NCBI GenBank assembly: GCA_937967505.1
Contig: CALCJM010000014.1
Location: forward strand, 1-64,000
Length of the DNA: 64,000 nt
DNA from: an uncultured Pirellulaceae bacterium
GTDB lineage: Bacteria > Planctomycetota > Planctomycetia > Pirellulales > Pirellulaceae
Reading direction: 5' to 3'
Notes under the pieces: model-generated
The model's input: only the letters and a program-made list of their open reading frames with translations
What the model was told of the DNA's origin: nothing
Database searches by the model: none
Translations under genes and position numbers: made by a program
Shown: piece by piece, positions 198 through 7,600 of the stretch
Layout of the letters: each line of letters starts with the position of its first letter
Position numbering within the stretch: the stretch's first letter is position 1

Positions 198-690
198 TTA
201 GGCAATGCCTTCAGTTGCAACAAGTGAGTACAAGCATTCTCGCAGCCACGGAGTAAGTTGCATGCAGCCATTGCCGGTTACAAGGCGATAGCTGGGGTTT
301 GCCGTAAATTTCCCGACGACACTATTTTCGATCTCATACGTTCCTATGATGTCTTCGGTCGGTATTTCGGCGTTCACATCTGGAGAACGTTGGTCAATCA
401 GGACTGCTTTTCGTTCACTTATTAGAGCGGCGAACTCAATCAACTGTGGGTCTAATCGCTCTCTACAGATGTTGTGAATAGCATCAACGAAACCCGAATA
501 CGCAATGAACTGCTCTGGTGTAACGGAACCATTGGGTTCCGTTAAAAATCCACAGATGCTTTCTTTCGGCAACCCAATACGTGATACCAACTCAGGTTTC
601 AACCACGTTGCAACGACAACCACAGGAGCATTGTGCGGTTCGGACAGTTTTACCCATGAAGGCAAGCGAGTTTTGTCAACTTCGCATACA
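198..690 (-). pseudogene. 3' part of a small gene split by the IS1-like transposon
   Basis: This is the downstream part of a gene of unknown function whose first 26 bases lie at 5111-5136. The present open frame runs to 764, but its first 22 residues are encoded by the transposon end, so it is a chimaera. Joining 5136-5111 to 690-198 (removing the transposon plus one copy of the 8-bp duplication) gives 519 bases: an ATG start, 172 codons and a stop, with no frame error. The intact gene would begin one base after the stop of the immunity gene at 5138-5488. By position it is another immunity or accessory gene of the toxin array. No domain was recognised. Confidence 0.8.
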
Positions 691-698
691 GTAAGTTC
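691..698. repeat. Target-site duplication, left copy
   Basis: GTAAGTTC, repeated exactly and in the same orientation at 5111-5118, directly outside the terminal inverted repeats of the transposon. Eight bases fits IS1-family insertion. Confidence 0.9.
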
Positions 699-722
699 GG
701 TAACGCGCCGCTGATTGCGTGG
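699..722 (+). repeat. Left terminal inverted repeat
   Basis: A 24-bp sequence, the perfect reverse complement of 5087-5110. It lies 2 bp beyond the transposase stop codon. The initial GGT is typical of IS1-family ends. Confidence 0.9.
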
Positions 723-724
723 TT

Positions 725-1678
725 CTAAATTATTTCCCACTCGGAAATTTCTCGGATAGTCCACTTTCGATCAGTCAAACCCGCACTAATCGCCGGAGTT
801 GTTTTGACCGTCGAATGTTTCTTGCTGAAATTATAGAAGCAAATCCAAATTGACAACATGGCACGGTGAACATCTACGTCTTTGCTATATCCAACTGACA
901 GGCGATTAAACCGTTTTAAAGCTGTCCGCACGGTTAAATTGAATCGCTCTACGTAGCTGGTTGAGCATCGATTCATGTCAGGATTGCCAAACTGGCTGAT
1001 GCGCTCGACGGTGTTTATCTGAGCCGGGCTGTAGCGCTTCTCAATCTGCTCGTTCTTGTAGGTTTTGATTAAAATCGAGTAGTCAACGTCGCTCAAGAAC
1101 TTGAACGGGATTCCATGCTTGTAAGCCGGTAGTCCATCGCTCGTGATCTGGACGCGGCCAGCGATTGAACGTCGCAGCTTGGTCAGGAATGTATCAGCAG
1201 TCTCGCCCGTGCGTCGTCCAGACTCGTAAGCCAAGACAAGCTTTGAATCTGCGCAGATGCCAAAGAACGTCCAGCAGTCCCCCACGTATCCCTTGAGCTT
1301 TGTTTTGGTTCGGTTGCGCTCAAGGCAGCCTACCTTTTCCCAGATTTCATCCACTTCCGCCACGTTGCAATCGACATCCTTAACGTACTCATCAAAGAAT
1401 CGTTCGCACTTCGCTCCAACGAGCTTGATGGCCTTGGTGATCGTCGTGTGTTTCAATCCAGTGATCCGACTGGCGGCTGCAACTGCGGTTCCTTCGCAAA
1501 GCAGATTCAAAGCCAAGAACACTTTGTCAGGATCGGCCTGCATATCGCCTAGCGGGCCGCTTGGAACGTGCTTGTCAGAGATTGTCGCTTTACAATCTCG
1601 GCACTTCCAGCGTTGTGAGCCGTTGCGATTCTTGCCGTGTTTATTCTTGTTTTTGTGTTCACATACGAGGGCTATCAT
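725..1678 (-). CDS. IS1-family-like DDE transposase
   Basis: A 317-residue transposase expected to cut and join the ends of the surrounding element. The N-terminus has a C-x-H...CxxC zinc-ribbon-like motif (Cys6, His8, Cys26, Cys29), followed by a helix-turn-helix-like segment (about residues 62-85). The catalytic triad is visible as VDEIW (Asp110), SDGLPAY (Asp181) and SYVERFN (Glu244). The ATG at 1678 is preferred over an upstream in-frame ATG at 1786 because the zinc motif begins there and because a hairpin with an AAAGG ribosome site lies just upstream. It is a single open frame without the programmed shift of classical IS1. The stop lies 2 bp inside the left inverted repeat. Confidence 0.85.
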   Translation of the reverse strand: MIALVCEHKNKNKHGKNRNGSQRWKCRDCKATISDKHVPSGPLGDMQADPDKVFLALNLLCEGTAVAAASRITGLKHTTITKAIKLVGAKCERFFDEYVKDVDCNVAEVDEIWEKVGCLERNRTKTKLKGYVGDCWTFFGICADSKLVLAYESGRRTGETADTFLTKLRRSIAGRVQITSDGLPAYKHGIPFKFLSDVDYSILIKTYKNEQIEKRYSPAQINTVERISQFGNPDMNRCSTSYVERFNLTVRTALKRFNRLSVGYSKDVDVHRAMLSIWICFYNFSKKHSTVKTTPAISAGLTDRKWTIREISEWEII

Positions 1679-1683
1679 TGTTT

Positions 1684-1701
1684 CGCCTTTGCCTAAAGGC
1701 G
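1684..1701 (-). promoter_or_regulatory. Hairpin covering the transposase ribosome site
   Basis: On the minus strand CGCCTTT-AGGC-AAAGGCG forms a perfect 7-bp stem ending 5 bases before the ATG at 1678. The only Shine-Dalgarno-like sequence (AAAGG) lies in its 3' arm. It would mask the ribosome site, a strategy known from other insertion sequences to limit translation from read-through transcripts. Confidence 0.45.
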
Positions 1702-1862
1702 CATCAACTCTAGAATGCAGTTGCGTTGACTGGCTTCTGGTGTTGACGCACCGGATGTCACGAGCCCCGTTCAGTTGCTTCAACAACTGGACGGGAGTTT
1801 TATAACGCTGCCCCTAGTATCTGGGCGCGTAGTGACACCTTTGGTCCGTTCGAAAGAAAAAG

Positions 1863-1946
1863 CGGCAAATTGAGGAATCGAACCTAATCCATTAGGGATT
1901 CACGAGAGTATAGGGCTCGTTGCTGAACCATCAGCGACAACCTGCC
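1863..1946 (-). ncRNA. tRNA-like fold, possibly a pseudo-tRNA
   Basis: The minus strand can fold as an 84-nt class II tRNA-like shape. The acceptor is GGCAGGT paired with ATTTGCC (two G-U pairs) plus a G discriminator. U8 and GG at 18-19 are present. The D-arm hairpin is shifted by two bases. The anticodon stem ACGAG/CTCGT encloses a 9-base loop CCCTATACT. There is a variable arm AATCC/GGATT and a T-loop TTCGATT on a stem with one mismatch. No 3' CCA is encoded. The oversized anticodon loop and shifted D-arm make it a degenerate tRNA or tRNA mimic. With the canonical numbering the anticodon would read CTA. Confidence 0.3.
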
Positions 1947-1949
1947 ATC

Positions 1950-1977
1950 GACGCTGGCCGCAAAGCCAGCGTCTTTT
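1950..1977 (+). terminator. Hairpin, weak plus-strand terminator
   Basis: GACGCTGGC pairs with GCCAGCGTC around the loop CGCAAA, followed by TTTT. It sits directly beside the 5' end of the tRNA-like fold on the other strand and could instead be part of that RNA. Confidence 0.3.
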
Positions 1978-2005
1978 GGTTGGTTCAATCAGAAAACGAT
2001 TGACT

Positions 2006-2065
2006 CTATATAGGCACCCCACTACACTTGCGCAGAACAACTCCGTAAACAGTTTGCCAGTACAT
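2006..2065 (-). CDS. Possible 19-residue peptide
   Basis: A short ORF (starts MYWQTVYG, ends SGVPI) preceded by a strong Shine-Dalgarno-like AAAGGAG spaced 6 bases from the ATG, downstream of the leader RNA and upstream of the transposase. No homology is claimed. It could be a leader peptide or chance. Confidence 0.2.
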   Translation of the reverse strand: MYWQTVYGVVLRKCSGVPI

Positions 2066-2190
2066 GGCACACTCCTTTGATTTAGGGATCGGATTGTCAG
2101 AAGGCCCAGCGACTGCGAATCGCTTGGGTCTTCACTCATTTAAGAGCATTGATTTTTCATTACATTGTTCTCTCCTTTGTAGATGGACAT

Positions 2191-2228
2191 AAAAAAAGAC
2201 CGTGCAAAGCGTTTTGCTTTGCACGGTC
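2191..2228 (-). terminator. Strong intrinsic terminator of the leader RNA
   Basis: On the minus strand GACCGTGCAAAGC and GCTTTGCACGGTC form a perfect 13-bp stem with a 5-base loop, followed by seven T. Directly after it come AAAGGAG and the overlapping ATGTAATG. Confidence 0.75.
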
Positions 2229-2395
2229 CGTATGTTCGGTTTCCGATGTTTTGCGATACGCTGGGGTTCTGCGTATCGCATTGCAGAAAAAATTCACCAG
2301 TGGCCGCTGGGCACAAAAAAAGCCGTAGCCCCTTTTGTTACCACACAACAAGGACACGGCTTCTCTTGATTGGATTGTGTTTTTGTTGTGTGGTG
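2191..2395 (-). ncRNA. Structured leader or small RNA with nested hairpins
   Basis: Transcript predicted from the promoter at 2401-2427 to the terminator at 2191-2228, about 205 nt. Near the 5' end 2383-2394 pairs perfectly with 2340-2351 (12 bp). The loop of that stem contains AGCCGT (2361-2356), which can pair with ACGGCT (2326-2321) followed by seven U, so the two pairings form either a pseudoknot or alternative terminator/antiterminator states. A third hairpin, TGCGATACGC/GCGTATCGCA (2252-2261/2271-2280), precedes the final terminator. No protein of matching size is evident. It lies upstream of the tRNA-like fold and the transposase on the same strand, so it may be an attenuator or a free small RNA. 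Confidence 0.5.
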
Positions 2396-2400
2396 ATTTC

Positions 2401-2427
2401 ATTATAGGGCTTCTCTGAGAATGTCAA
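2401..2427 (-). promoter_or_regulatory. Consensus sigma-70-type promoter
   Basis: On the minus strand TTGACA (2427-2422) and TATAAT (2406-2401) are both perfect consensus hexamers with a 15-base spacer (16 if TTTGAC is used). Transcription should start near 2395, at the first base of the leader hairpin. Confidence 0.6.
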
Positions 2428-2435
2428 ACAAATTC

Positions 2436-2545
2436 TCAAAGGTTTTCGCGTCGTCCCAGTGCATCGCCAAGCGACTTCTTTAGAGTCCTTTCGCCTGTTA
2501 CTGGTTGATGCCCGCGCTCCAGCATCTCCACGACCAATGTCCAGC
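2436..2545 (-). pseudogene. Fragment similar to the tail after the winged-helix gene
   Basis: Only the 3' end of a gene remains: a stretch ending LKKSLGDALGRRENL preceded by VEMLERGHQPVTGERT. It closely matches the VEMLQRGFVPVNGKATFKKS stretch at 4250-4401 in the same element. It abuts a transposase fragment on the other strand, so it appears to be the debris of an older, related element. Confidence 0.55.
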
Positions 2546-2550
2546 CAAAA

Positions 2551-2796
2551 TCAATTGAAAAGGCTTCACGGTTCGGCAACCCAGATATGGCGATGGCCTC
2601 AACGTCGTTTGTCGAAAACTTCAACCTTCAGTTGAGAATGGGGCTGAGGCGGTTCACGCGGCTGACGAACGCGTTCTCAAAATCACTGGACCACCACCGG
2701 GCGATGCAGGCAATCTACATTGCAAACTTCAATTTTTGCCGTAAACACGGAACGCTGAAGAAAACGCCAGCAATGGCAGTAAAGCTGCGCAGCTAA
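2551..2796 (+). pseudogene. C-terminal fragment of a second IS1-like transposase
   Basis: An open frame encodes FGNPDMAMASTSFVENFN and continues through an HRAM...FNFCRKHGT region. It parallels the C-terminal part of the intact transposase (FGNPDMNRCSTSYVERFN, HRAM...FYNFSKKHST). The catalytic Glu (FVENFN) is kept but the two Asp residues and the N-terminus are absent. There is no credible start. It is in the opposite orientation to the intact transposase and is a non-functional relic. Confidence 0.75.
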
Positions 2797-3074
2797 GATT
2801 TATTTTTCGGCTCGTCATCAAATACAGGCGTTCTCTCGACCTTTGATTCGTATGCTTCGATATCGCTTACACGTCGCCTCTGGCTGTTTATATGATTTTG
2901 TGTCTGGGCCTTATTAAGTTGCTTAAAGACGTAAGAGATCGCGAAAACTGGCAAGAGTGCCAACAAGAAAATCCTAGTGAAAGCTTCAACAAGTTCTTCC
3001 ATAACCGAAAATTGAGTTCTGTTGTTCAATAACATAAACACAATTATCGACATGACAAAAATAAATGACAACAT
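2793..3074 (-). CDS. Small membrane protein, unknown function
   Basis: 93 residues with an N-terminal membrane segment (LSFIFVMSIIVFMLL) and a second one (IFLLALLPVFAISYVF, about residues 35-50), followed by a charged cytoplasmic tail. A good ribosome site (AGGAAAG) lies 4 bases before the ATG. It is cargo of the IS1-like transposon and overlaps the end of the transposase relic by a few bases. No family recognised. Confidence 0.55.
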   Translation of the reverse strand: MLSFIFVMSIIVFMLLNNRTQFSVMEELVEAFTRIFLLALLPVFAISYVFKQLNKAQTQNHINSQRRRVSDIEAYESKVERTPVFDDEPKNKS

Positions 3075-3207
3075 TGAACTTTCCTAGCATGCCGTTTCGT
3101 TAAGTAGTTTTTCGATACTCCACACCGAATCATCAGTTCCATGGTTGTTGGCGTGATCCCAGCAGTTAAACTCAGATCTTTGGTTTGCGAAACTAAAGGT
3201 AACTGTG

Positions 3208-3423
3208 ATGAAAACGAAAACATGCCCAAATTGTGGCCAATCGGCAAACAAAAAGGCAAAAACCTGCCCCTTTTGCAAACGTAAATTTGGAGTAACTGGC
3301 GGCCTTGAGCGTGCCGGAACTAGCATGTTTATGATGGGGTTCTATATCATCTGCATCTGCATTCCGTGCGTTGGATGGGTGATTGGCGCCATCGTCTACG
3401 CAATTCGCAGCAAGCAGTCTTAG
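3208..3423 (+). CDS. Zinc-ribbon plus membrane-anchor peptide
   Basis: About 71 residues. The N-terminus has two CxxC pairs (CPNCGQ and CPFCKRK) that form a zinc ribbon, followed by a hydrophobic C-terminal half (MGFYIICICIPCVGWVIGAIVYA) that is one membrane helix or a hairpin. AAAGG lies about 9 bases before the ATG; a GTG three bases upstream could also be used. Such zinc-ribbon/membrane miniproteins are widespread but functionally unassigned. It is the only intact plus-strand gene in the transposon. Confidence 0.65.
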   Translation: MKTKTCPNCGQSANKKAKTCPFCKRKFGVTGGLERAGTSMFMMGFYIICICIPCVGWVIGAIVYAIRSKQS

Positions 3424-3454
3424 CCATGCACGCATCCATCCATATCACGTTTCA

Positions 3455-4138
3455 TTACTTCAAGTCCTTCTCACTGAGGTTGTCAATTACGCCTTGGAGC
3501 CACGCACTCGTTGCTATCTCTGGCTTGTCGTGTTTAAGTCTGAAATTCAGGGCTTGGGCGTGGCTACTCTTGAGAGACCCACTGACGTATTCCTTTAGCT
3601 CGACTCTCCAGTCAGTTTCTTGAGACACCGACAGGCTAAATGAATTCATGGCTTTGCTATGCGACACCATCAGTTCTGCCAACGGCGACATATTTTTAGG
3701 AGTTGGTATTCTCTCAAACAGGTCCGTTAGCTTTTTCCTGACTGTCTCCAGTCGTTCTGACTCTTGCTTCGCAGGATCGGGAATAGGATCATTACCAACA
3801 CGATCACTGTTGCTGATCGTCGTTCTATCTACTGGTTGCTTCGAACCCCATAATCGCATTGCCAAAAGCGCGAAAAGGCAAACTATCGCAGACAACGCAC
3901 ACAAATGCTGAAACCACTCAGCGCCGAAAACAGGCAGGCCAGAATACCAATCATCAATTGAGTTCACAAATCCCATGCTTGACGCCGCCGATAGTACATA
4001 ACTTGGTATTGCTAAAAGAGCGCTGACTCCGCAGGCCCAACCCATCCAGTTGGGTGCTGGCGGAATCCTCTGTAGCACGTCTCCCATTGCCATCGTCCTT
4101 GCTTTTGAATTGGCAAGCGAGTACAATGCAATCATCAC
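3455..4138 (-). CDS. Two-helix membrane protein, unknown function
   Basis: 227 residues with two membrane segments (about residues 31-58 and 73-95). A long, charged, mostly helical C-terminal domain follows (ESERLETVRKKLTDLFERI and onward). No recognised domain. It starts at tandem ATG codons near 4138. It is cargo within the transposon, with the hairpin at 4168-4199 just upstream. Confidence 0.5.
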   Translation of the reverse strand: MMIALYSLANSKARTMAMGDVLQRIPPAPNWMGWACGVSALLAIPSYVLSAASSMGFVNSIDDWYSGLPVFGAEWFQHLCALSAIVCLFALLAMRLWGSKQPVDRTTISNSDRVGNDPIPDPAKQESERLETVRKKLTDLFERIPTPKNMSPLAELMVSHSKAMNSFSLSVSQETDWRVELKEYVSGSLKSSHAQALNFRLKHDKPEIATSAWLQGVIDNLSEKDLK

Positions 4139-4167
4139 AATTGAGTGTTCTCGCTTGAGAATTAATT

Positions 4168-4200
4168 AAGCCGTCAGACGCCAATCTGACGGCTTTTTTA
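4168..4200 (+). terminator. Hairpin terminator, plus strand
   Basis: AAGCCGTCAGA pairs with TCTGACGGCTT around a six-base loop, followed by a run of T. The opposite strand also has A/T-rich flanks, so it may act in both directions and insulate the genes on either side. Confidence 0.55.
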
Positions 4201-4249
4201 TTGTCTCAAAAGTTTGGCAGCTTTCAATGGTCGATTTCAGCCATCATTC

Positions 4250-4401
4250 CACTGGATTGATGCACCAGTTGGATTCTCTTTCAGTGAACACCTCACTTCG
4301 CCCCATCGCCGACCTTAGTGACTTCTTAAACGTCGCTTTCCCATTGACTGGAACAAAGCCGCGCTGCAACATCTCCACGGCCAGAACTCTCAAATCTACA
4401 G
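4250..4401 (-). pseudogene. Detached tail sequence after the winged-helix gene
   Basis: The frame of the gene at 4403-5035 continues past its TGA stop into a coding-like stretch (DLRVLAVEMLQRGFVPV, then KKSLRSAMGRSEVF) ending in TGA near 4250. It matches the fragment at 2436-2545. Either the TGA is a mutation that truncated a longer protein, or this is the end of a separate decayed gene. Confidence 0.45.
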
Positions 4402-4402
4402 T

Positions 4403-5035
4403 TCACGAAGAACCACCTTGGCGGCATTTTGCTTTCCAGTAGCCTTCATCCACCTCTCTGAACTTATCAGGTCGGCTTTTCAGCACTCTGGCCACTTCAC
4501 CAACAGCGCTACTGGGATCGGACTTTAGCGCTTGGCCGTTTTCGATCAGCCAGACGCAGATCTCAACTGGCCTCATTGGTGCGTTATTTTGCCTCAGAAC
4601 GTCTATCACGATTTTGGCTAATGGAGGAAGGGGTTCGTCAGCATCGACGTGTAGGCGTGCGTATCGTTTGACCAAACGGCTGTCAGGATTGATTACTTCC
4701 TTGAACCGGTCGGCAGCTTTGATCATTAGCCGCAGCGTGTTCCGCAAGTTCCTAGTCTCTGGAGGGTGGTTGCTCGAACGATTTACGGCTTCAACCAGCT
4801 CATTGAAAGTGAATATTTCGTCTTGGGGCGCTGCTTGGTCGATCACGTCTTTGGTTGGGTTGAGCGTGCGACGTGGACGGCTCGCATTTGCAGGATCTAC
4901 GCTGGATAGATCCCGTTCCAATCGCTTGATCTGCTCAAGACGTTCGTCGTAAGCTGTCTTGCTGGATTGAATGTCCTGGTCCCGTTTGGCGCGGGCAAGG
5001 ATTCGCAGGTGTTCGAATGTTGATTTTGCGTTCAT
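4403..5035 (-). CDS. Winged-helix (HARE-HTH-like) protein, transposon cargo
   Basis: 210 residues. The N-terminal third is a basic coiled-coil-like segment (EHLRILARAKRDQDIQSS...ERLEQIKRLERDL). The C-terminal part (about 140-205: PLAKIVIDVLRQNNAPMRP...EVARVLKSRPDKFREV...GYWK) has the spacing of a winged helix, most like HARE-HTH domains that couple DNA binding to effectors. It is the gene nearest the right end of the transposon. It might regulate the element or bind its ends. The frame continues beyond the TGA (see 4250-4401), so the protein may be slightly truncated. Confidence 0.5.
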   Translation of the reverse strand: MNAKSTFEHLRILARAKRDQDIQSSKTAYDERLEQIKRLERDLSSVDPANASRPRRTLNPTKDVIDQAAPQDEIFTFNELVEAVNRSSNHPPETRNLRNTLRLMIKAADRFKEVINPDSRLVKRYARLHVDADEPLPPLAKIVIDVLRQNNAPMRPVEICVWLIENGQALKSDPSSAVGEVARVLKSRPDKFREVDEGYWKAKCRQGGSS

Positions 5036-5086
5036 AATGACGCATGATTCAACTTATCGCAGCAGGTTCAAGGGTGGGTGGGGCAC

Positions 5087-5110
5087 CCACGCAATCAGCG
5101 GCGCGTTACC
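5087..5110 (-). repeat. Right terminal inverted repeat
   Basis: A perfect 24-bp reverse complement of 699-722, directly followed by the right copy of the target duplication. Confidence 0.9.
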
Positions 5111-5118
5111 GTAAGTTC
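5111..5118. repeat. Target-site duplication, right copy
   Basis: GTAAGTTC, identical to 691-698. Part of the 5' end of the interrupted gene. Confidence 0.9.
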
Positions 5119-5136
5119 GAGCGCGTCATTGGTCAT
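5111..5136 (-). pseudogene. 5' end of the gene split by the transposon
   Basis: ATG plus seven further codons and two bases (MTNDALEL...), starting one base after the stop of the upstream immunity gene. The continuation is at 690-198. The tight spacing places the intact gene at the end of the toxin/immunity operon. Confidence 0.8.
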
Positions 5137-5137
5137 T

Positions 5138-5488
5138 TCATTTTCCATGGGCATTATCGTAATGCGTTTCCAAGCCATTCCAAAGTAACTCGTTAATCGC
5201 TTCTCGTAACTCCTCCGCCATCGTCGAAACTGTAGCTCCAAGTTCTTTCGATTGTTTTGAATAGTGATCCACGGTGTTTTCGATTTCCCACGGCAACTCA
5301 AAAAGGCATGCAACGGCCAAACGATCAATACGATCGTCGGAATTTACAGATCGCGAAATCGCACTGATTGCTTCCATGAGCCGCGCAAACTTGTTTTTGT
5401 CAACTTGATTCTCGCGAATCAAGACTGCATAGCCGTCTGGCTTCAAACATTCTTCGACAATAACTTGCTTGGCTTGCTCAAATGTCAT
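5138..5488 (-). CDS. Putative immunity protein for the ART-like tip
   Basis: 116 residues, acidic and mostly helical, no signal peptide, no recognised family. The start overlaps the stop of the preceding toxin tip in the ATGA arrangement (5485-5488), the classic organisation of polymorphic toxin tip and immunity gene. The assignment rests on this linkage. It would bind and neutralise the ADP-ribosyltransferase-like tip in the cytoplasm. Confidence 0.55.
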   Translation of the reverse strand: MTFEQAKQVIVEECLKPDGYAVLIRENQVDKNKFARLMEAISAISRSVNSDDRIDRLAVACLFELPWEIENTVDHYSKQSKELGATVSTMAEELREAINELLWNGLETHYDNAHGK

Positions 5489-5866
5489 TTTTTGCCCTGA
5501 ATGATCTTAATGGCTTCAGGCGGAATCGGTGGGTTTGGCCCACCAATGTCACGAATCAAAACTTCTTGGTGAGATTTGGTTCGAGAGAACACACGTCCCC
5601 TGCCGACGCCCTGAGATGCGCCAACAACCTCGCCCGGAACTTTGTTCAGGTCAATTCCAACAACGCTATTTCCTCTGTTGGACAAGCCCTCAGCTTTGGA
5701 TTGGTCCTTCGTTGCAGAGATAAGATCGCTCTGCTTCTTGCCCATGGCATCGCTGCCGACCTTGGTATTGGCTCCGGGTGCTCTTGCCCGAAGTCCTTGT
5801 GTTACATCTTCGCCTTCACGCAAGGCACGGCACGGAACACTTCATTCTTGGGGCAAAGCTTTAATC
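5485..5866 (-). pseudogene. Orphan ADP-ribosyltransferase-like toxin tip, frameshifted
   Basis: A C-terminal toxin module without its RHS-type carrier. The R-S-E pattern of ADP-ribosyltransferases is visible: VFRALREGED (Arg), a Ser in DLISATKDQSKA, and Glu in SHQEVLIRDI, with PEAIKII at the end. The Arg segment is out of frame. A 5-bp tandem duplication (GGCAC twice on the plus strand, 5824-5834) shifts KNEVFRA away from LREGEDV; removing one copy restores KNEVFRALREGED. The remaining frame (112 codons to 5823) lacks a good start. Such orphan tips can be recombined onto a full-length toxin. Function by motif only. Confidence 0.6.
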
Positions 5867-5868
5867 AA

Positions 5869-6294
5869 TTAAAGCGTGTACGGTACCATCTCATTTGTAA
5901 ACTCATCCCAATCCCCTTTGCGGAACAACGAGACGGCTCTTTCGCTCGAGTCCATTTCACCAATACCCGTTAGCGAGACGCCAAGATCAAGTAGGACCAC
6001 GGCTCCAAAGCATATTTTTGGCGAATTGTCTCGTTGGCATAGTTCCTTGAGTCCTTCTTCGGTCCATGAAATGCCTATGCCGTTCAAGGAAAAACCACAT
6101 TCTTCCTCGATGGTAATTTCTCTAAATCTCCCACTTGCGAGACAGATCACGAACCCGTCGTAGTGAAAAAGTTCCTCACCACTCCGATTTGTCCGTGTCA
6201 TTTTTGGTGCCCCAAATGCGGATCTGACCGCATCGGCGTTTGCACCGAAACTCAGGTTTTGCAGCCCTTCATAACTTGTTGCATTTATGTCCAT
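5869..6294 (-). CDS. Putative immunity protein for the Hint-linked tip
   Basis: 141 residues, acidic, no membrane segment. It begins 7 bases after the stop of the preceding toxin tip, with AAGGA about 10 bases before the ATG. No immunity family was recognised; the role is inferred from position and size. It probably protects kin cells from the toxin module encoded directly upstream. Confidence 0.55.
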   Translation of the reverse strand: MDINATSYEGLQNLSFGANADAVRSAFGAPKMTRTNRSGEELFHYDGFVICLASGRFREITIEEECGFSLNGIGISWTEEGLKELCQRDNSPKICFGAVVLLDLGVSLTGIGEMDSSERAVSLFRKGDWDEFTNEMVPYTL

Positions 6295-6297
6295 AAA

Positions 6298-6849
6298 TCA
6301 GTTCCTTGGCAACTGGCCAGTCCCTTTTGCATATTCAAGCATTTCTCTAATCGCATCATTGTATTTTCTCCCGTTTCCCGACCCTTCCTGTGCAGCTCGT
6401 CTCGCATCTCGAATATCGCGGGCCATAGCGTCAAGATGACGTCCTTGCCCAATCATTTCAGCAGTCTCCTGCCTATATCTTGCTGCGTCCCTGCTCGCCC
6501 CCCAACTGCCAGTGAGTCGATGGTCACGTACATCCATTTGAACAGAGGGGCCGTCACCGACTGAAACATCAGGGTTGGCACCGCGATCAGGCATATGATG
6601 CGAGTCACGTTTGTCCCCTTTAAACCGACGACCAGTCATCTCATTGTGCGATCCGCCACGAGGCCTACCCGCGTCACATGCGTTTATAACATGTAAGCTT
6701 GTCCCGCCATTATGGACCAAAATACCCGTTTCCGCGACGCAGTAAATATGGCTCACCTGAACTTCAAGGTTGAACACCGGTTCTGGCGAACCACGCGGTG
6801 AGATACCCAATACCCGGGCACAACCTGTCTTGTTACCGTTTTCCTTCGG
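6298..6849 (-). CDS. Orphan toxin tip with the end of a Hint-like domain
   Basis: The frame opens after the upstream immunity gene with no AUG; a TTG at 6810 is the only listed start. It reads VFNLEVQVSHIYCVAETGILVHNG, which is the conserved end of the Hint protease domain that precedes many RHS-type toxins. The following domain has DSHHMPD, GPSVQMDVRDHR, TGSWG and a helical end (KYNDAIREMLEYAK). The His/Asp-rich pattern suggests a metal-dependent nuclease, but this is inference. Without the carrier it should not be secreted by itself, so it is best read as a stored replacement tip. Confidence 0.65.
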   Translation of the reverse strand, partial: PKENGNKTGCARVLGISPRGSPEPVFNLEVQVSHIYCVAETGILVHNGGTSLHVINACDAGRPRGGSHNEMTGRRFKGDKRDSHHMPDRGANPDVSVGDGPSVQMDVRDHRLTGSWGASRDAARYRQETAEMIGQGRHLDAMARDIRDARRAAQEGSGNGRKYNDAIREMLEYAKGTGQLPRN

Positions 6850-6857
6850 CTACGTCG

Positions 6858-7256
6858 CTATGCGGGCAGGGCCGAGACTTCCCACGCAACGCTAGACGCA
6901 AAGAAACAAAACGGATGCTTTAGAAAGTTCGCTGCGTCCGACGCATTTCCCTGCTCTTCATCGATCCCCACGCCCCAACCAGCTTCATACTTCCTTAGTA
7001 CCAAGCCGTCAGAAAGCACCCGATAAGAAGTTTTACCTTCGGACACTTGAAATTGAGTCACTTCTGAAAGCTTGAGCACGAGATTTACCCACTCACCACC
7101 AGCATTTTGGTCCTGACATTGGATGGCAATGTTAACATTTGGCCAGCGAGCGTTTTCGTCATAGTGGATATTGATCGCCTCAATTACAGAATCGAAAAAG
7201 CGATTAAATCGTTCCAAAAATTCTGCAACACTGCCCGTTTCAAGATTTGATTCCAT
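6858..7256 (-). CDS. Putative immunity protein of the GHG-rich tip
   Basis: 132 residues from the ATG at 7256, which lies 5 bases after the stop of the preceding tip. The longer open frame to 7313 would overlap the tip and is less likely. Acidic, soluble, no family recognised. Assigned by alternation of toxin tip and downstream small gene along the array. Confidence 0.5.
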   Translation of the reverse strand: MESNLETGSVAEFLERFNRFFDSVIEAINIHYDENARWPNVNIAIQCQDQNAGGEWVNLVLKLSEVTQFQVSEGKTSYRVLSDGLVLRKYEAGWGVGIDEEQGNASDAANFLKHPFCFFASSVAWEVSALPA

Positions 7257-7261
7257 TCGAT

Positions 7262-7600
7262 TTAGCTTCCAATTGGGTTTGAAGGATTGAGTCCGGGAGA
7301 TAGCTCCGTCCAATCAGGCGGAAGCTGATCTTTTGGAATGTGAGGCTTACCTTTGCCGTGGCCCGACGCGGGATTCCCCGGCTCTGGGAATTTGTGGCCG
7401 TGCCCGCTTGGTGCCCCTACGCCATGATTTTTGTAATCAACATGGCCAATGACGTTTCCATCACCATCGTAGATCGCAGTCTGTTTGACGTTTCCGTTGC
7501 CGTCAAGATGATGGTACTTTGAATTCGGCGTCGCGTCTTTTGTCTAGGGCTTACCCGTTCCTTGAAAGACTTCACTCTTTGGGGCAAGGAGCTACCAACA
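7262..7600 (-). pseudogene. Orphan toxin tip rich in Gly-His, with an in-frame stop
   Basis: The translated C-terminal module reads YHHLDGNGNVKQTAIYDGDG, then IGHVDYKNHG, GHGHKFPEPG and GHGKGKPH, ending NPIGS. This is the style of the terminal toxin modules of RHS proteins. Upstream, LAPKSEVFQGTGKP resembles the junction of the neighbouring ART-like tip (CPKNEVFRA), marking the conserved point where tips are joined. An in-frame TAG at 7544-7546 separates the junction from the toxin module, and no start codon is present. The rest of the carrier gene is not in the window; the IS701-like remnant lies next to it. Confidence 0.55.

Follow-up and report, generated by a model that had tools for sequence, protein, structure and literature searches.

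Elements of the insertion sequence (IS) family IS1 are about 0.7–1.2 kb long, carry two reading frames joined by a -1 frameshift, have ends of the form GGnnnTG, and generate target duplications of 8–9 bp, and the ISfinder subgroup ISMhu11 includes one-frame elements with lengths up to 4.6 kb. Transporter insertion sequences (tIS), defined for IS1595 and other groups, are described as pairing a transposase of IS type with passenger genes that have no role in transposition (PMC3129680, PMC9330008, PMC7986276). The element analysed here occupies positions 699–5110 (4412 bp) of a 64,000-nucleotide stretch (the window) of contig CALCJM010000014.1 from an uncultured Pirellulaceae bacterium (GenBank assembly GCA_937967505.1). 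It is probably a complete, IS1-related, cargo-carrying unit transposon whose own transfer RNA (tRNA) with anticodon UAU affects the production or activity of the transposase that the element encodes. Its boundaries, the interrupted host gene, and the transposase are:

198–690, minus strand: split host gene, larger part
691–698, no strand: target-site duplication GTAAGTTC, left copy
699–722, plus strand: terminal inverted repeat, transposase-side end
725–1678, minus strand: IS1-like DDE transposase of 317 amino acids in a single frame, with an N-terminal zinc-ribbon-like segment (Pfam, alignment)
5087–5110, minus strand: terminal inverted repeat, far end
5111–5118, no strand: target-site duplication GTAAGTTC, right copy
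5111–5136, minus strand: split host gene, first codons with the ATG

The two arms were identical at 24 of 24 bases, or 25 of 25 with the outermost C/G that is itself part of the duplication, and GTAAGTTC flanked the element in direct orientation at 691–698 and 5111–5118 as an 8-bp target-site duplication, both as claimed in an earlier note made from the sequence. The same note held that excision restores a 519-base gene, and rejoining 5136–5111 to 690–198 indeed gave 519 bases from ATG to TAA free of internal stops, the frame being open to its end at only -3, 0, and +3 among nine join offsets from -4 to +4. Matches to the split gene were found in four of 199 genomes of the family, the window's own counted in, and the three remote homologues (28–33% identical), which the note had proposed to check for an element-derived N-terminus, lacked it. 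Its suggestion of a recent insertion gained no support: the element is present in one copy, an empty allele of the insertion site was not found in comparison with the 199 family genomes, and the transposase lies on a long branch of the tree; the further copies it proposed to seek were absent from 28 genomes of the genus. The 21-bp end had no third site, with up to three mismatches allowed, in the element's own genome (5,028,977 bases, 88.9% complete). The tRNA-like gene, the accessory gene, and the inner fragments of related elements described below had escaped the note.

The listed open reading frame (ORF) of the transposase extends to 1786 only via a TTG start, and the ATG start gives 725–1678. 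Its product passed Pfam DDE_Tnp_IS1 (39.4 bits, cut-off 24.1), in support of the earlier description of a cargo-carrying IS1-like element splitting a gene. It scored 80.6 bits with the NCBIfam IS1 model, below a cut-off of 100 that only L036 (108.1) passed among five relatives scanned, and 19.1 bits with the NCBIfam IS1595 profile (cut-off 75). The residues D110, D181, and E244 were invariant across 16 aligned relatives, and profile comparison with InsB of Escherichia coli IS1A gave a probability of 97.4% over 118 columns. The first aspartate and the glutamate are 134 residues apart in the window transposase and 82 in InsB. Among the 85 relatives, pattern matching located both motifs in 64, whose median distance was 136; the clade therefore has extra sequence ahead of the catalytic glutamate. 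The transposase occurs once in its genome, besides a 51% identical C-terminal fragment lying inside the element in opposite orientation.

Close relatives of the transposase (E 1e-30 or better, own included) were identified in 14 of 392 genomes of the phylum, a profile search (E 1e-40) identified relatives in 52 of 397 genomes of the class, and a contig scan gave at least 569 transposase relatives, of which the best 80, from many phyla, were kept. Elements were considered resolved if they had GG ends matching at 13 or more of 20 positions, an exact 8-bp duplication, and a length below 8 kb. Of 101 transposase places, located in 98 loci, 62 were resolved by this definition, corresponding to 60 distinct elements of 1085–7450 bp (median 3310). 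A second set of 38 places added 24 elements, and a further one was delimited from two copies identical to each other, giving 85 resolved elements, the window's included, with duplications of 7–8 bp. In the control, the best-scoring end pair had a full 8-bp duplication in none of 101 shuffled flanks and in two of 101 reversed flanks (L115, L031); a chance origin of ends and duplication is excluded in practice. With the single exception of the bare IS L114 (1085 bp), the resolved elements (84/85) were longer than 2 kb, so that the cargo-bearing IS1-like group suggested earlier does exist, and cargo is the rule in this clade.

According to simple patterns, the inner end TTTGA/CTAA accompanied 50 of 57 transposases without the zinc-ribbon pattern and one of 28 with it, 18 of the latter having TG[TC]G; on the tree, the zinc label changed twice compared to 23.6–23.7 times in shuffles. 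The end sequence was GGTAACG in the window and GGTAGTG in most resolved relatives.

Whole-unit movement was evident in a relative from G683, a genome from the family to which the window's host belongs, where a 3318-bp element occurs twice at 100% identity, one copy flanked by the exact 8-bp duplication GGATTGTG and the other by CCCAACCT; there is also a third copy, truncated on one side. Over 832 bp of the transposase region, elements L036 and L189 are 84% identical. Two further stretches of 133–135 bp, one at an element end and one within the accessory gene, match at about 70%, and the two elements have no other cargo in common: the former carries a 320-aa protein and the latter a PIN-domain protein with a partner. 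Cargo was likewise exchanged in L029/L031 and retained in L111/L103. Thus, even elements whose ends and transposases resemble each other can have entirely different cargo. A 2795-bp element in L054 (5100–10697) is present as two head-to-tail copies with the same 8-bp repeat TGTGGTTC between and flanking them, either a true tandem or an assembly effect.

Besides ends and transposase, an accessory gene family was present in 65 of the 85 elements. A KGG-motif protein of approximately 80–95 aa was found in 52 (two or three at weak scores), its frame opening within 120 bp of the far end in 29 of these, and its profile gave 53 matches in 290 kb of elements compared to two in 870 kb outside, one of which lay in a second tandem copy. 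A related accessory form was the best match in five elements, and the window carries a third kind:

4403–5035, minus strand: accessory gene of 210 aa with a coiled coil and a C-terminal winged helix

Its structure model displayed an N-terminal helix and a C-terminal winged helix (predicted local distance difference test 70.9, about 90 over most of residues 141–200). The seven strong matches to this family constituted exactly one seven-element transposase clade (support 100/99), in which the gene starts within about 80 bp of an end, and two further weak matches were from L045 and L048. The profile gave nine matches inside elements and none in 870 kb of flanks, and the family occurred in eight of 297 genomes. 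The winged-helix protein is inferred to bind DNA, perhaps the element ends. Winged-helix matches in L208 and L210 lay outside resolved elements, near a UAU tRNA. Another match outside resolved elements, in L209 (8811–9649), is an accessory-type gene that continues in frame into the C-terminal remnant of a transposase and represents an element with an internal deletion.

The remaining backbone component lies just upstream of the transposase:

1862–1946, minus strand: tRNA-like gene, anticodon UAU at 1910–1912 (Rfam, ARAGORN relaxed)

This gene has a 9-bp acceptor stem, a 3-bp T stem, a long variable arm, and a G after the acceptor stem, and CCA is not encoded. Searched against Rfam, the first 6 kb yielded a single match, to tRNA-Sec at 1864–1946 (minus), and ARAGORN with relaxed settings reported tRNA-Ile(TAT) at this place and at like places in relatives. 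Default ARAGORN gave 14 matches in 290 kb of elements compared to seven in 914 kb of flanks, ten of the 14 preceding the transposase by at most 900 bp on its own strand and one lying on the other strand. In ten aligned UAU copies, 90.9% of the cells pair and double-sided pair changes occupied 36 cells compared to 9.3 in shuffles, a signal abolished by sliding; a complete cloverleaf with conserved pairs was thus present in the ten-sequence alignment, the window copy alone being weak. The model built from these ten found copies unused in its building, including L166/L039 (99 bits), L187 (86), L208 (83), L210 (79), and L154 (76). The UAU tRNA was present in at least 12 of 85 resolved elements (30 bits or more, transposase strand), with L041 having it on the other strand. 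Across 387 genomes of the class 35 matches were found in 28 genomes, and 17 of the 26 matches reaching 70 bits lay within 2.5 kb upstream of a profile-found transposase on the same strand (matched by hand). The window tRNA is the weakest of the UAU copies.

Other anticodons occurred at the same place, including GCU (L068:6765–6839, L108:6762–6837), ACU (L066), CGU (L060), GUC (L045), GUC plus UAU (L048), and UUA (L050); L079 has a UUA form on the opposite strand. Unlike the UAU forms, the tRNA-like genes of L108, L060, and L066 encode CCA or a similar sequence at their end. At L071:3976–5318, a series of tRNA-like matches adjoins a transposase relative.

The link between tRNA and transposase lies in a codon:

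1016–1018, minus strand: AUA codon for transposase residue 221, a fixed position linked to the UAU tRNA

Among the 85 transposases, AUA encodes the sixth residue of YSPAxI (the first site) in ten of 11 elements with an ARAGORN UAU tRNA, a residue that is cysteine or valine in most other transposases. In 134 transposases, counting tRNAs on the same strand within 2.5 kb, 13 had both the tRNA and AUA at this site, three the tRNA without AUA, six AUA without the tRNA, and 112 neither, with AUA making up 19 of the 22 isoleucine codons there. Among the six, L154 has its tRNA further upstream, L041 has it on the other strand, L152 has a cut copy of the tRNA, and L048 has a standard tRNA-Ile(TAT) by ARAGORN.

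For further codon tests, identical coding sequences were counted once (L039/L166 being one contig) and groups 1 and 2 were split on the codon at alignment column 222, the 14 of 14 there holding by construction; group 1 includes L159, in which a contig end truncates the tRNA. In group 2 (n = 9; those new transposases found through the tRNA that lack AUA at the first site, plus L024, L187, and L160) column 241, near the catalytic glutamate, was always isoleucine, encoded by AUA in eight of nine compared to four of the 68 isoleucine codons that rows lacking the tRNA have there (p 2e-7, kinship ignored), and at column 233 AUA accounted for six of seven isoleucine codons. An open scan of every codon in every column placed AUA first of 395 tests in group 2, AUA at column 223 first of 638 in group 1, and AUA in the top two places of 988 over both groups, kinship being ignored throughout. 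Columns 222, 233, and 241 were chosen after the data had been seen, so that their combined count of 23 of 23 versus eight of 116 (p 7e-20) serves as description only. Fairer tests are provided by the open scan and by group 2 at column 241, both of which ignore the tree. The AUA positions lie within about 25 residues ahead of the catalytic glutamate. This pattern is read as a codon-level constraint tied to the tRNA.

The cargo was scanned with Pfam, PADLOC, and NCBIfam, covering 150 of 167 cargo ORFs (100 aa or more) and 150 of 212 flank ORFs, with tallies for the first 25 families listed. Pfam matches in cargo included HTH_3 (15), Peptidase_M78 (nine), SocA/Panacea (four), P63C (three), and ClpP-type (three), with single matches to PIN, MazF-type, Gp49, TIR, and methylase families. 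PADLOC gave RmrA (at most six), PD-Lambda-2_B (five), and RmrT (at most two), and NCBIfam gave HigA (five), spr1629 antitoxin (five), and SocA (four). None of these cargo families was among the first 25 listed for flank ORFs in Pfam or NCBIfam, and PADLOC counts in flanks were at most three, other defence-model matches such as helicases included. The cargo of the clade is thus, from its predicted products, rich in toxin-antitoxin and defence-type genes (Panacea and RosmerTA are treated in PMC10440598). A recurrent cargo protein of about 260–320 aa with a start like ...RSPxxPS was present in six of the 85 elements (L019, L036, L040, L079, L150, and L162) and had no Pfam family in L079 and L150, the two scanned.

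The cargo of the window element (227, 93, and 72 aa) showed no family above cut-off in Pfam or NCBIfam and no recognisable toxin-antitoxin pair. The features between transposase-side and far-end genes are:

2197–2229, minus strand: terminator-like hairpin with a T run (consensus match only)
2445–2537, minus strand: fragment resembling that at 4265–4402, 61% over 31 residues
2539–2787, plus strand: second-transposase fragment, C-terminal part, 51% identical, in opposite orientation
2793–3074, minus strand: candidate ORF of 93 aa with a hydrophobic N-terminus
3205–3423, plus strand: ORF of 72 aa, zinc-ribbon-like with a hydrophobic segment (Pfam below cut-off)
3455–4138, minus strand: cargo ORF of 227 aa with two hydrophobic segments by eye and no family (structure model unusable)
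4168–4195, both strands: terminator-like hairpin (consensus match only)
4265–4402, minus strand: accessory-type gene fragment, C-terminal part, just downstream of the intact gene (weak profile match, E 0.002)

The inner accessory-gene fragments may be relics of exchange between elements. Beside the insertion, the window has a run of small minus-strand genes (5138–7313) that looks, at a guess, like a polymorphic-toxin or immunity array, and the gene at 6298–6810 weakly matched an intein C-terminus (14.8 bits, cut-off 15.6).

In the proposed mechanism, the transposase would recognise both ends, move all that lies between them, and leave the 8-bp duplication, in the manner of the relative in which unit movement was seen. 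The backbone would comprise the ends, the transposase, the tRNA-like gene just upstream, and the accessory gene starting near the other end, with replaceable cargo between these parts. Judging from the codon association, the UAU tRNA would read AUA codons kept at a few fixed transposase positions and would carry either isoleucine, supporting translation, or serine, spoiling part of the enzyme and acting as a brake. A more specific form of this reading, possible though somewhat less likely than not, is that the element-encoded tRNA reads a rare codon kept beside the transposase active site, that the meaning or decoding rate of this codon serves as a built-in control of transposition, and that toxin-antitoxin and defence cargo is swapped between the fixed parts.

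Several observations weigh against the proposed mechanism. The window tRNA scored 36.9 bits versus the Rfam gathering score of 47, was not reported by ARAGORN at default, was missed by the stricter 387-genome scan, and has C before the anticodon where the other nine aligned copies have U, while nine of the 26 strong tRNA matches had no profile-found transposase nearby. As for the codon, AUA occupies the first site in L186 and L043, where no UAU tRNA was detectable even with filters off, only two of eight new transposases found through the tRNA and with a readable site had AUA at the first site, and the second AUA site was identified only after the first-site prediction had failed in part. The rows used in the codon tests are related and the tests are not tree-aware. 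Finally, the element contains fragments of relatives and its transposase occupies a long branch.

Among the explanations that depart from this reading in whole or part, the one that survives best, possible although we lean against it, is that an isoleucine-charged tRNA reads the rare AUA, such that full-length transposase is made well only with the element's tRNA; the element would then be independent of host AUA reading, or its expression limited to cells expressing the tRNA. The anticodon UAU pairs with AUA, and rows without the tRNA have isoleucine or valine at column 241 in 108 of 116 cases and hydrophobic residues or cysteine at column 222, so that a serine needed at column 241 would be ill-suited. 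AUA is also scarce elsewhere, its share of isoleucine codons away from columns 222–223 being 10 of 178 in group 1, 18 of 128 in group 2, and 124 of 1512 in the rest. However, the clustering of AUA close to the catalytic glutamate is left unexplained, the long variable arm and G73 are serine-type tRNA features, and hosts normally read AUA themselves.

The same features of the tRNA, with its 9/3 geometry, would suit a rather unlikely alternative in which a serine-charged tRNA inserts serine at AUA in some molecules, at hydrophobic positions beside the active site, spoiling these molecules and so limiting transposition according to tRNA dose. That all alternative AUA positions lie near the catalytic glutamate agrees with this, and serine was not listed among the residues that rows lacking the tRNA have at columns 222 and 241. 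However, misread AUA in host genes would burden the host, and we know of no such tRNA-based brake on transposition.

It is also somewhat improbable that the window element is a former clade member that is now dead, as its long transposase branch and inner fragments of relatives could indicate; the single copy and weak tRNA point the same way, whereas the perfect ends and duplication, the open transposase frame, and all three catalytic residues do not. Nor is the tRNA likely to be a mere passenger or transcript-processing signal with an inherited codon pattern. The other tRNA-like genes at the same place and the relatedness of the transposase rows would fit such a role, but AUA came first in scans open to all codons and columns, and neighbouring codons differ between rows, so that plain inheritance of a DNA stretch fits poorly. 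Last, a short IS1 element that once trapped host genes by accident, as the second-transposase and accessory-type gene fragments inside might suggest, is very improbable given the one perfect end pair with one duplication, the more than 1 kb besides the transposase in 84 of 85 resolved relatives, the accessory gene tracking the transposase clade, and the failure to find inner end copies with up to three mismatches.

Returning to the reading of a unit transposon with its own tRNA, the tRNA has a described counterpart in the allo-tRNAs with 8/4 or 9/3 acceptor/T stems that were reportedly found by Mukai and colleagues in 2017. It shares with them the 9-bp acceptor stem, 3-bp T stem, long variable arm, and similarity to selenocysteine tRNA, and differs in lying inside a transposon adjoining the transposase, where its codon is kept. 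If the tRNA does act on AUA, a mobile element would control its enzyme by means of a decoding molecule that it encodes itself, to our knowledge an undescribed way of controlling transposition, and odd tRNAs of 9/3 geometry would have a possible job.

Compared to IS1 (E. coli IS1A, InsA/InsB), the clade shares DDE motifs around D, D, and E/R, GGT ends, a short target duplication, and, in part of the clade, zinc-ribbon-like and helix-turn-helix-like N-terminal segments. IS1A measures 768 bp and has two overlapping frames, whereas the window element has the single open frame 725–1678 and, at 4412 bp, carries cargo, a tRNA, and an accessory gene; only one of the 85 resolved elements is shorter than 2 kb. 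The window's ends read GGTAACG and depart from GGnnnTG, and its 8-bp duplication falls within the range of the family. Among the papers searched, none joined IS1 family, toxin-antitoxin, cargo, and transposon.

Tn3-family transposons carry toxin-antitoxin pairs (PMC7157771) and, as far as that account describes them, are the nearest described parallel for the cargo: in both, toxin-antitoxin modules are recurrent exchangeable passengers, although the present clade has a different transposase family and the analysis identified no resolvase. Judged by predicted products, toxin-antitoxin and defence-type genes are thus carried by a broad and poorly annotated clade related to IS1, on a fixed backbone with replaceable cargo. 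The window element combines one IS-type transposase with passenger genes between one end pair, as in tIS, and differs from tIS as described in the cited accounts in that cargo is the rule clade-wide and is accompanied by a recurrent accessory gene and partly by a tRNA. By sequence it is IS1-related, and by form it is a transporter IS.

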